A stretch of 43,535 bases of DNA from Thioalkalivibrio sp. (GTDB lineage: Bacteria > Pseudomonadota > Gammaproteobacteria > Ectothiorhodospirales > Ectothiorhodospiraceae): NCBI GenBank assembly GCA_011389655.1, contig JAABTX010000016.1, positions 1 through 43,535 on the forward strand, read 5' to 3'. Within the stretch, counting starts at the first letter, position 1. Each line of letters begins with the position of its first letter. The translations under genes were made by a program, and so were the position numbers. The notes beneath the pieces were generated by a model. That model ran no database searches. It was not told the origin of the DNA and saw nothing but the letters and a program-made list of their open reading frames with translations. Shown piece by piece: positions 19,278 to 27,617 of the stretch.

Positions 19278-20327
19278 TCAGGCACTCCCGGGCATGCTGT
19301 AGGGAAGCGGTATCACATGCGCCTCCGGTCCGTCCGTGCTGCCCCAGCGCAATGGCTGCTCGGCAGCAGCGACCTGCACGACGGCGAGGACCGCGTAGAG
19401 TCCGTCCGGATGCAGCGCGGCATCGACGATCTCGCCATCGGGCTGACGCCCATCGCCGCCGGCACGGAACACCGGGCTGCCGGGAGCCGGCCTTTCCTGC
19501 GCCTCGATCGCGAGGCGGTACATGCGCCGCTTCAGCTTGCCGAGGTAGTGCATGCGCGCCACCACCTCCTGGCCGGGATAGCAGCCCTTGTTGAAGCTGA
19601 TGCCGTCAAGTGCGTGCAGGTTGACCATCTGCGGCACGAAGGCCTCGCTCGTCTCGGGGTAGATCGCCGGAATGCCCGCTAGGATGTCCAGCAGCCGCCA
19701 GCCCTCCGGTCCGACCGGTGCACTGTGCACGTTGAGATCGTTCCACAGCGCGCTGCAGGCGTCGATCTCGCCGGCGATTTCGAAGCGCGGATGCACCATA
19801 CCGGGAACCCGCACGATCGCCAGCTCGTTGCGCTTCAGCACCTCATTGACCTCGCCCGGGAAGGCGCCGAGGTTTTCCTGCAGCTGCCGTTCGGCAGTGG
19901 GACCCGAGAGTCCGAAACGGATGCGCGAGTCCTCCGCGTTCTCGATCACGACCTCCGCGCGCATCACGAACATGCCCAGGCGCTTGCGGACGGGTTCCAC
20001 CGCGTCGGCGTTCATCTCCAGCAGAAAGACATCGCGGTCGTGGAAGACCCGGAAGACTGCGTAGGCGCGGCCCTTGGGGTTGCAGTAGCTGGACAGCTGG
20101 GAACGCGTGTCGCTGACCGCGCGAACGTCGTTGCCGAGCTGCCCCTGGAGGAAGGAGCGCGCGTCCCCGCCGCGCACCTCCAAAAGGCCGCGGTGCGAAA
20201 GGTCGCAGATCACGTCGCCGTTCACCGCCATGCTCCGCTCGCGCTCGGCATTGCCATAGTCCCGCAACCGGTCCCCGTCGAACTCCGCGCCAATGTTCAG
20301 CAGGTGCTTCTTCCAGTCATCCCGCAT
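19278..20327 (-). CDS. ygfZ: Folate-binding Fe-S maturation/repair protein YgfZ
   Basis: YgfZ/IBA57-type protein of the GcvT-like fold, needed for activity of certain [4Fe-4S] enzymes such as MiaB. The diagnostic K-G-C-Y-x-G-Q-E motif is present (NKGCYPGQEVVARMHYLGKLKRRM), including the essential cysteine. The 349-residue length fits. The frame is open for 13 more codons, but the ATG at 20327 has GAGGTGG ten bases upstream. It reads divergently from sdhC; in E. coli ygfZ is likewise divergent from sdhE(ygfY)-ygfX, so this synteny is preserved around the sdh operon. Confidence 0.93.
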   Translation of the reverse strand: MRDDWKKHLLNIGAEFDGDRLRDYGNAERERSMAVNGDVICDLSHRGLLEVRGGDARSFLQGQLGNDVRAVSDTRSQLSSYCNPKGRAYAVFRVFHDRDVFLLEMNADAVEPVRKRLGMFVMRAEVVIENAEDSRIRFGLSGPTAERQLQENLGAFPGEVNEVLKRNELAIVRVPGMVHPRFEIAGEIDACSALWNDLNVHSAPVGPEGWRLLDILAGIPAIYPETSEAFVPQMVNLHALDGISFNKGCYPGQEVVARMHYLGKLKRRMYRLAIEAQERPAPGSPVFRAGGDGRQPDGEIVDAALHPDGLYAVLAVVQVAAAEQPLRWGSTDGPEAHVIPLPYSMPGSA

Positions 20328-20350
20328 CGCAAGCCACCTCGCGCCCTGGC

Positions 20351-20356
20351 TATACT
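20351..20356 (+). promoter_or_regulatory. Candidate -10 element for the sdh operon
   Basis: TATACT lies 84 bases before the sdhC ATG within the ygfZ/sdhC divergent gap. The -35 region has no good match, so the call is tentative. Confidence 0.3.
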
Positions 20357-20440
20357 GTGGAACCAACGGGCGCCATAGTAGACGAACAGCCAGGCGGGTG
20401 ACAGATCAACCGCAGGACGCAAGACCATCAGGAGAAGCGC

Positions 20441-22935: not shown

Positions 22936-23637
22936 ATGGAATTTTCCATCTACCGCTTCAATCCGGAAACGGACAGTGCACCCTACATGCAGGACTTCAC
23001 GCTCGGGGATGACCTGGTCGAGCCGGGGATGATGCTGCTGGACGCCCTGCTGTTGCTGAAGGAACAGGACGACAGCCTGTCCTTCCGGAGGTCCTGTCAG
23101 CATGGTGTCTGCGGCAGCGACGGGATGAACATCAACGGCACGAACGGTCTCGCCTGCATCATGCCGCTGAAGGACCTGAAGACGCCAATCGTGCTGCGTC
23201 CGTTTCCGGGAATGCCGGTGATCCGGGATCTGATCGTGGACATGGACAACTTCTACCACCAGTACCGCGAGGCGGAGCCCTGGCTGGTCAACGACTCGCC
23301 GGAGCCGGAGGTCGAGCGGCTGCAGAGTCCGGAGGACCGCGGTCAGCTGGATGGCCTCTACGAGTGCATCCTGTGCGGATGCTGCTCTGCGGCCTGTCCC
23401 TCCTATTGGTGGAATCCGGACCGTTTTCTTGGGCCCGCAGCGTTGCTTCAGGCGGCCCGGTTCATTCAGGACAGTCGCGACGAGGCCACCGAACACCGGC
23501 TGGAGCGTCTGGACGATGCCTATCGTCTGTACCGCTGCCACGGCATCATGAACTGTACGCAGGTCTGTCCGAAGGGCCTCAACCCCGCCAAGGCGATCGG
23601 GGACATCCGCAGAACCATGCTCAAACGCTCGGTGTGA
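22936..23637 (+). CDS. sdhB: Succinate dehydrogenase iron-sulfur subunit
   Basis: Electron-transfer subunit of complex II with three Fe-S clusters. The [2Fe-2S] ligands are C54, C59, D62 and C74 (SCQHGVCGSDGM), including the Asp ligand known in E. coli SdhB. The C-terminal domain has CILCGCCSAACPSYWW and CHGIMNCTQVCPKG for the [4Fe-4S] and [3Fe-4S] clusters. GGGAGGA precedes the ATG. The 233-residue length is normal, and sdhE follows after 22 bases. Confidence 0.97.
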   Translation: MEFSIYRFNPETDSAPYMQDFTLGDDLVEPGMMLLDALLLLKEQDDSLSFRRSCQHGVCGSDGMNINGTNGLACIMPLKDLKTPIVLRPFPGMPVIRDLIVDMDNFYHQYREAEPWLVNDSPEPEVERLQSPEDRGQLDGLYECILCGCCSAACPSYWWNPDRFLGPAALLQAARFIQDSRDEATEHRLERLDDAYRLYRCHGIMNCTQVCPKGLNPAKAIGDIRRTMLKRSV

Positions 23638-23659
23638 GTCCCGGGCGGCCCGCGGCTGG

Positions 23660-23920
23660 ATGATGACCTTGCCCGATACACAGACGCGCTGGCGCTGCCG
23701 CCGGGGCATGCTGGAGAACGATCTGCTGCTCCGTGCCTTTCTCGAACATGGATACGACGAGCTTGACCAGGAGGGTCGCGATGCCTTCGAGCGCTTGCTG
23801 GGATACCCGGACAATCTGCTGCTGGACCTGGTGCTGGGCCGCCAGCAAACGGTGGATGCGGACATAGCCCGGCTTGTCCCGCTCATCCGCGCCGCCGCTG
23901 CGGCTCGCGCTGGGGACTGA
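23660..23920 (+). CDS. sdhE: FAD assembly factor SdhE
   Basis: SdhE promotes covalent attachment of FAD to SdhA. The 86-residue protein contains the required RGxxE motif at residues 15-19 (RRGMLENDLLL) and the YDELDQEGRDAFERLL helix typical of the family. Its position directly after sdhB fits this role. The following YgfX-like frame overlaps its last 47 bases. Confidence 0.93.
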   Translation: MMTLPDTQTRWRCRRGMLENDLLLRAFLEHGYDELDQEGRDAFERLLGYPDNLLLDLVLGRQQTVDADIARLVPLIRAAAAARAGD

Positions 23921-24818
23921 CCGGGTCCTGCCCACCCTCGCGGTGATCGCCCTGGCCGGGCTCGGCGTGTCCGCAGTGATCCAGACGCTGCTCTTCAGCG
24001 GAGCGTGGGCGGCCCTGCTGACGCTGTCTGCCGCCGTCCTGGCCGGCACCTGGACCTACCGCTCACGGATGCCGCGTTGGGACTGGCTGGGTTGCGACGG
24101 CGAGGGCGAGTGGTGGCTGGCCACGCATGCGGGCCTGCGCGAGGAGAGGCGTGTCCCGATCCGCGTGGGCGCCGACACCCGCGTGCATTCCCGGCTGGTG
24201 GTGCTGGTCTGGAGTTCCCCGGCAACAGGCCGCGGTGGTGTGCTCTGGCTGCCCTGGTGGCGCATGGATCCGGAGGACTTCCGGCGCCTGCGCGCGCGCC
24301 TGCGCTGGCCGGTGGAGGTCGCGGAGAAACCCGGTCTCGTCGCGCGGCTTCAGGCGGCCCGGAGCCGGGCCATTGCTATACTCGCCCCCGTTTCCAGGCA
24401 CGGAGTGCGGCCCATGGACAGCCCGAGGCAGATGGCGGCGGTCGAGCACCTTCTGAGTGATGACCCGGACCACGTCTACACAGAGGACGAGCTTGACGCG
24501 ATCGAGGCGGTCGATCCGGAACTCGCCCTGCGCCTGGATCGCGCCCAGACCTTCGCCCAGCGCGAGGCGGCGGATGTGCCGGCCGAAGGCCCGATCGATG
24601 AAACGGTGGTCCGGCAGGCGGTGGAGGAAGCGCGGCGGATCCTGATGCAGGACGGTGGCGACATCGAGTATGTGGGGCTGGACGGTCGTACCGTCCAGGT
24701 GCGGCTGAAGGGCGCCTGTGTCGGCTGCCCGCGCTCGACCCTGGACCTGAAGAACGTGGTGGAACGGCTCGTGCGCTCCCGTGCACCGGGCGTGGAGCGG
24801 GTGGCGAACACCTTCTGA
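23874..24818 (+). CDS. YgfX-like membrane domain in frame with NifU C-terminal Fe-S scaffold domain
   Basis: One uninterrupted 314-codon frame. Residues 1-165 resemble YgfX/CptA: LRLALGTDR, two transmembrane segments (about 20-40 and 45-62), and MDPEDFRRLRARLRW. Residues 235-314 form a NifU C-terminal domain with GDIEYVGLDG and CVGC, the Fe-S-binding CxxC. No stop codon separates them. The YgfX-like start would be TTG 23874 inside sdhE. An internal ATG at 24414 (Met181), with CGGAG upstream and a TGCTATACT promoter candidate, could make a stand-alone 134-residue NifU protein. I report the full frame, since the YgfX part has no other stop; the main product may be either form. Confidence 0.7.
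   Translation: MSRSSAPPLRLALGTDRVLPTLAVIALAGLGVSAVIQTLLFSGAWAALLTLSAAVLAGTWTYRSRMPRWDWLGCDGEGEWWLATHAGLREERRVPIRVGADTRVHSRLVVLVWSSPATGRGGVLWLPWWRMDPEDFRRLRARLRWPVEVAEKPGLVARLQAARSRAIAILAPVSRHGVRPMDSPRQMAAVEHLLSDDPDHVYTEDELDAIEAVDPELALRLDRAQTFAQREAADVPAEGPIDETVVRQAVEEARRILMQDGGDIEYVGLDGRTVQVRLKGACVGCPRSTLDLKNVVERLVRSRAPGVERVANTF
24374..24382 (+). promoter_or_regulatory. Candidate internal extended -10 promoter for the NifU domain
   Basis: TGC followed by TATACT, 32 bases before the internal ATG at 24414; CGGAG at 24401-24405 could be its ribosome binding site. It lies in the linker between the YgfX-like and NifU parts. Confidence 0.45.
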
Positions 24819-24848
24819 GTCCGGGCGCGCGAGGCGCCGGGCCGCGTC

Positions 24849-26549
<1,701 letters not shown>

Positions 26550-27293: not shown

Positions 27294-27617
27294 TCAGCGT
27301 TCCAGATACTGCAGCTTGTCCGGCTTCCCGTCCCACTCCTCCGCGTCGGGAGGCGGGTCCTTGCGCGCGGTGATCACCGGCCAGGATCGCGAGAGCTCCG
27401 AATTCAGTTCGATGAACTCTTCCTGTCCCTCCGGCACATCGTCCTCCGGAACGATCGCCTCCGCCGGACACTCGGGCTCGCACAGCGTGCAGTCGATGCA
27501 TTCGTCGGGATCGATCACCAGGAAGTTCGGACCCTCGTGAAAGCAATCCACCGGGCACACTTCGACACAGTCGGTGTACTTGCACTTGATGCAGTTTTCA
27601 AGAACGACGTAGGTCAT
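27294..27617 (-). CDS. fdxA: 7Fe ferredoxin FdxA
   Basis: A 107-residue [3Fe-4S][4Fe-4S] ferredoxin of the Azotobacter FdI type. The first cluster region has C9, C12, C17 and C21 plus an extra C25 ([19 protein letters not shown]), the second C40, C43, C46 and C50 ([13 protein letters not shown]). The C-terminal extension with [15 protein letters not shown] is characteristic. GGAGAA precedes the ATG. It follows mutS on the same strand after 130 bases; a TAGAAT at 27663-27668 (minus) may serve as -10. In other bacteria it commonly neighbours mutS. Confidence 0.95.

Follow-up and report, generated by a model that had tools for sequence, protein, structure and literature searches.

We identified a gene in Thioalkalivibrio sp. 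in which a YgfX/CptA-like membrane part and a NifU domain with a CVGC motif are encoded in one uninterrupted reading frame of 314 residues, located directly after sdhB and sdhE. Comparison with related genomes indicates that this YgfX-NifU fusion is genuine and conserved, and the conservation of a promoter element, a Shine-Dalgarno sequence and an ATG inside the frame makes it reasonably probable that the gene contains a nested promoter and gives two products, one Fe-S carrier anchored in the membrane and one that is soluble. The window, which is the whole stretch of DNA analyzed, comprises 43,535 nucleotides (contig JAABTX010000016.1). The joining of the two parts in one frame had been noted in a preliminary description of this DNA and was confirmed here. 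The features of the locus are as follows:

22936 to 23637, forward strand: sdhB, encoding the Fe-S subunit, assigned by Pfam; upstream neighbour of sdhE
23660 to 23920, forward strand: sdhE (PF03937, 72.2 bits, cut-off 27), sharing its last 47 nt with the fused gene
23874 to 24818, forward strand: fused ygfX-nifU open frame by translation, 314 codons, TTG start, single terminal stop
23874 to 24308, forward strand: YgfX/CptA-like part, residues 1-145, with a predicted helix hairpin (18-42/44-63)
24309 to 24413, forward strand: linker, residues 146-180, probably derived from an intergenic gap that contained promoter and leader and is now an open frame
24374 to 24382, forward strand: extended -10 of the putative internal promoter, TGCTATACT (TG-N-TATACT), recognized by hexamer conservation, fixed spacing and ATA codon bias
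24402 to 24405, forward strand: Shine-Dalgarno sequence GGAG of the putative internal start, 8 nt upstream of the ATG at 24414, kept in 30 of 31 fused genes
24414 to 24818, forward strand: nifU as a putative separate gene of 134 codons from the internal ATG, which is kept in 30 of 31
24609 to 24803, forward strand: NifU domain (PF01106), residues 246-310, with CVGC at residues 282-285 (24717 to 24728)

The TTG at 23874 lies within the last 47 nt of sdhE and is preceded by an in-frame stop three codons upstream. A TTG start was found at the same place in all 23 genus homologues read, and the corresponding codon in the sister genus is ATG. The internal ATG at 24414 is codon 181 of the fused frame, and the region around it aligns with the start region of the separate nifU genes of outgroup species. 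Open reading frames resembling sdhC, sdhD and sdhA (named by eye) are located upstream of sdhB on the same strand. Elsewhere in the window, the left edge (11 to 2172) resembles the end of a SUF operon, with a SufD-like and a SufT-like open reading frame (876 to 1421), both named by eye, and a match to A-type carriers (PF01521) at 1858 to 2154. A YgfZ-like open reading frame (19278 to 20366, reverse strand, by eye) points away from the sdh genes; ygfZ likewise adjoins sdhE-ygfX in E. coli K-12. A small ferredoxin-like open reading frame with two Cys clusters (27294 to 27617, reverse strand, by eye) lies about 2.5 kb beyond the fused gene.

The NifU domain was recognized with 73.2 bits against a cut-off of 27, the CxxC motif is present, and C282 and C285 are invariant across the 16 rows of alignment A1. 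NifU domains carry a [4Fe-4S] cluster via the CxxC motif and hand it over to apo-proteins. Membership of the window protein in the YgfX/CptA family (PF07254) rests on its homologues, because its own score (15.7 bits, residues 26-145) is below the Pfam cut-off of 27.3. All 16 members of A1 match PF07254 at E ≤ 0.1. Six other fused homologues were scanned one at a time, and three score above the cut-off (L106, 38.8 bits; L098, 29.3 bits; L019, 27.7 bits) and three below it (L012, 25.2 bits; L010, 25.0 bits; L023, 19.1 bits). Three separate YgfX proteins from outgroup species score 49-53 bits, which is above the cut-off. The window protein further combines a two-helix membrane hairpin (predicted helices 18-42 and 44-63) with an adjoining sdhE gene, which we take to be the defining features of the YgfX/CptA family. 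An AlphaFold model computed on A1 comprises the hairpin (18-42/44-63) followed by a beta domain, a poorly defined linker and a NifU domain of moderate confidence; its overall quality is mediocre (mean pLDDT 70.9, pTM 0.40), with pLDDT values below 50 at residues 148-155 and 170-188. Foldseek at E ≤ 0.001 returned three matches, all of the NifU type (2z51, 2m5o, 1veh) and in agreement with the sequence search, and no match for the YgfX part. Arg-rich flanks on either side of the hairpin suggest that both ends of the protein, and therefore also the NifU domain, are cytoplasmic.

The preliminary description had proposed to look for the same fusion in relatives and had regarded a stop codon between the domains in a relative as evidence against it. 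Searching with alignment A1, we found a full-length, stop-free match in the same frame in 28 of 30 Thioalkalivibrio genomes, with no internal stops; the two genomes without a match are drafts that are 66% and 80% complete. In the sister genus (g273), both domains occur in one frame of 342-346 codons in three of five genomes, the other two being without a match. The fusion is present in relatives, and across both genera all 31 fused genes are free of a stop between the domains. The order-wide search took in the same 47 genomes as this search. The class was also sampled evenly (369 genomes, at most six candidates scored per genome, the sister-genus fusions not being part of the sample); in this sample only two genomes, both Thioalkalivibrio, contain a full-length stop-free match; a third full-length match, in a genome of another family (G360), has a TAA inside. 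Outside the genus, neither part was matched at E ≤ 0.001 in five genomes of the same family, which points to an apparent loss or strong divergence of both parts in these species (G407, 82% complete; G345, G396, G410, and G411, each at least 98% complete). The genome of the window is a draft of 367 contigs, and an assembly or sequencing error masking a stop between two genes was therefore considered. Homologues across the genus carry the same open frame (28 of 30 genomes, among them two single-contig genomes), so this explanation was rejected and its probability can be regarded as negligible.

In 11 outgroup loci, ygfX and nifU are adjacent as separate genes. The order sdhB-sdhE-ygfX-nifU is present in five of these, belonging to the families f127 (L112 and L113) and f151 (L108, L109, and L110). 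These five loci show the same gene order and families as Thioalkalivibrio and differ from it by a stop codon or a change of frame between ygfX and nifU: in L113 the two genes are in the same frame with a TAA between them, whereas the frames differ in L108, L109, L110, and L112. L113 is therefore a stop-bearing relative of the kind named in the preliminary description, but as an outgroup belonging to a different family it represents the unfused state. A further f127 locus (L111) has no match to the ygfX model, though sdhB, sdhE, and nifU are present. Among the Ectothiorhodospira-like loci (genus g17), six have ygfX-nifU facing sdhB-sdhE rather than following it; in three of these six (L101, L102, and L103), ygfX extends in a different frame beyond the point where nifU starts, and the -10 has become degenerate. 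In two further g17 loci (L104 and L105), ygfX adjoins sdhE and no nifU match was found. Long frames preceding nifU were also inspected: at L063 the frame overlies ygfX on the same strand in a different phase, at L067 and L070 nothing YgfX-like was recognized by eye, and no such frame was obtained for L069 and L076. Trees of SdhB and NifU were built with FastTree. In the SdhB tree, the two genera with the fusion form one group (support 1.00), so that one fusion event suffices, and the NifU tree is too short to resolve the relations between families, one f151 sequence falling beside g273. The comparison suggests an ancestral state in which ygfX and nifU were neighbours and nifU had its own promoter in the gap, and indicates that the ygfX frame joined nifU in the common ancestor of Thioalkalivibrio and its sister genus, probably that of T. 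sulfidiphilus and T. denitrificans.

The internal signals are conserved at the DNA level. The hexamer TATACT is present in 29 of the 31 fused genes, at a distance of 31 nt from the internal ATG in all 29, and the ATG and a Shine-Dalgarno sequence (GGAG or GAGG) are each kept in 30 of 31. In L009, the ATG and the Shine-Dalgarno sequence are kept and TACACT replaces TATACT. Codon usage in the 28 genus open reading frames follows these signals: Ile at the -10 column is encoded by ATA in 26 of 26 cases versus 2 of 212 elsewhere, and Gly at the Shine-Dalgarno column by GGA in 27 of 27 versus 54 of 610 elsewhere; the Fisher P values for this bias treat the species as independent, which they are not. 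As read from these codon counts, the -10 hexamer forces the rare codon ATA. A consensus sigma-70 scan of 23600 to 24900 gave no sites (0.1 expected) and no promoter with a -35, so that the internal promoter is visible only as an extended -10 and by its conservation. A TATAAT is located 32-35 nt upstream of the nifU ATG in three unfused f127 species, L112 and L113 among them, and G130 (g17) has a TATACT 29 nt upstream of the nifU ATG (all distances counted by hand). The similar location in the three unfused species suggests that the linker derives from a promoter and leader that have since become part of the reading frame. The internal promoter is thus probably older than the fusion, with linker residues 146-180 corresponding to its former gap, and the locus would be a clear case of an older promoter and start kept alive within a coding sequence after fusion.

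A second element, GGCTTC (24346 to 24351), precedes the internal -10 by 25 nt and is also kept at the DNA level in the genus; Leu at this column is encoded by CTT in 26 of 26 cases versus 53 of 1115 elsewhere. GAAACC, a loosely matching inverted half, is found 14 nt further upstream in the window, and the two are perhaps a candidate regulator site near -40.

A natural experiment is provided by one species (G012, locus L011; one contig, completeness 100) that is without the internal promoter and start. In this species the -10, the Shine-Dalgarno sequence and the ATG are all lost, while the frame and the CVGC motif are intact and the fused gene is the one PF01106 gene of the genome. By its sequence, this species seems to live with the fusion alone. 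The evidence is strong, not final, because weak initiation could still occur at a GTG located three codons before the position of the lost ATG.

The openness of the linker was considered in relation to a neutral read-through, according to which the stop of ygfX was lost, the frame is open by chance owing to the high G+C content, YgfX works whatever is attached to its end, and it is the soluble NifU made from the internal promoter that acts as the useful carrier. The true frame of the linker has a stop in none of the 31 species, compared with 9 and 4 of 31 for the other two frames. Because the DNA is G+C-rich and these other frames are often open too, the open frame alone is weak evidence, and the strict retention of promoter, Shine-Dalgarno sequence and ATG also counts in favour of a neutral read-through. 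In neutral simulations on the tree, the probability that no linker stop occurs in 31 species was 0.005-0.03 at a rate scale of 0.7 and 0.0006-0.008 at a rate scale of 1.0, at which 5.0 changes per linker site were obtained versus 4.38 observed. These values are optimistic, since the simulations predict more stops in the control frames (mean 9.3-12.5 of 31) than the 9 and 4 seen. The share of changes at third codon positions rises from 0.35 for the linker to 0.49 for YgfX and 0.83 for NifU; the nearly flat linker value gives no support for selection on linker residues, and if selection acts, it would act on openness and not on linker sequence. With almost no constraint on the linker, translation through it may be tolerated rather than useful. 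Against a neutral read-through stand the absence of linker stops in 31 species at about 4.4 changes per site (simulated P 0.0006-0.03) and the species G012, which kept the frame and the NifU domain without the internal signals, and we consider this explanation unlikely. The same species, together with the lack of a detectable -35, could be taken to mean that the fused form is the sole product, the internal promoter and start being either relics or signals with a different role. Relics would not hold the -10 at one spacing in 29 of 31 genes and preserve the rare codons, which makes this explanation highly improbable. The conserved extended -10, Shine-Dalgarno sequence and ATG at fixed spacing make production of both a fused and a soluble form the best-supported reading of the sequence. 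A tethered carrier and an internal start had originally been offered as alternatives; they do not exclude each other and are probably both true.

In the two-product reading, the sdh operon transcript would be translated from the TTG through the fused frame into a 314-residue inner-membrane protein, as judged from the sequence and the model. The predicted layout of this anchored protein is an N-terminus on the inside, a two-helix hairpin, the YgfX beta domain, a loose linker and a cytoplasmic NifU domain. The retained internal promoter, Shine-Dalgarno sequence and ATG would give a soluble NifU carrier of 134 residues. Cluster supply at the membrane would probably fall to the anchored form, with the soluble form serving the rest of the cell. 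SdhB is the first candidate recipient at the membrane because of the operon position and a YgfX-SdhE contact, which is stated in the title of McNeil 2013 (cited by PMC8621075). According to PMC8621075, a two-hybrid assay in Shewanella detected no contact between YgfX and YgfY (SdhE), the function of YgfX is disputed, being a toxin in one reading and an SdhE partner in another, and its assignment to a type IV toxin-antitoxin system CptBA, in which toxicity towards FtsZ/MreB is relieved by the partner, is disputed as well. Human NFU1 disease includes complex II defects (PMC4238403).

The fused gene is the sole PF01106 gene in each of 28 of the 30 genus genomes; A-type carriers (PF01521) are also present, with two matches in G000 and three in G012. 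A sole NifU-domain gene per genome makes a general role probable, and the earlier proposal of a carrier dedicated to succinate dehydrogenase is weakened by it. The carrier is thus probably also the general Nfu carrier, with supply of succinate dehydrogenase as a plausible step. A further possibility is that the anchored form delivers Fe-S clusters generally on the membrane side, to other respiratory complexes or lipoate-linked enzymes, without a particular connection to succinate dehydrogenase, and that its place in the sdh operon serves expression alone. The single PF01106 gene and the six Ectothiorhodospira-like loci, which keep ygfX-nifU facing sdhB-sdhE, are consistent with this possibility, but the order sdhB-sdhE-ygfX-nifU recurs in two other families and the reported contact connects YgfX to SdhE, so that we regard it as conceivable rather than probable. 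A link between YgfX and Fe-S delivery emerges from the conserved fusion and from the pairing of the two genes downstream of sdhE in other families. Tentatively, YgfX might be a membrane platform for the assembly of succinate dehydrogenase that joins the flavinylation factor SdhE and the Nfu Fe-S carrier. In Thioalkalivibrio, platform and carrier would then be one protein, with the ancestral internal promoter still supplying the soluble carrier, and one gene would set the split between membrane-targeted and general Fe-S delivery. A literature search, which had most subscription journals outside its range, found no paper naming both YgfX and NifU and none on such a fusion.

The fused homologues resemble E. 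coli K-12 YgfX (CptA, PF07254) across nearly the whole profile. A C-terminal LWL...RRLR-like motif is common to both, and the E. coli gene likewise overlaps the end of sdhE; a direct hhalign comparison of A1 with E. coli YgfX is weak (28 columns, E 0.0034, probability 9.6). Unlike the fused protein, E. coli YgfX is a separate protein of 135 residues without a NifU domain. The E. coli-type NfuA (TIGR03341) and NifU proper (TIGR02000) have the NifU domain in common with the window protein, which scores far below the cut-offs of both models (17.1 versus 269.35 bits and 41.9 versus 273.3 bits, respectively). Plant CnfU (2z51), human NFU1 (2m5o), and Staphylococcus SE0630 (1xhj) contain the same CxxC NifU domain by sequence and fold. 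In contrast to these Nfu carriers, the putative 134-residue form has about 65 residues preceding the NifU domain, and in the fused protein the domain is joined to a membrane protein.
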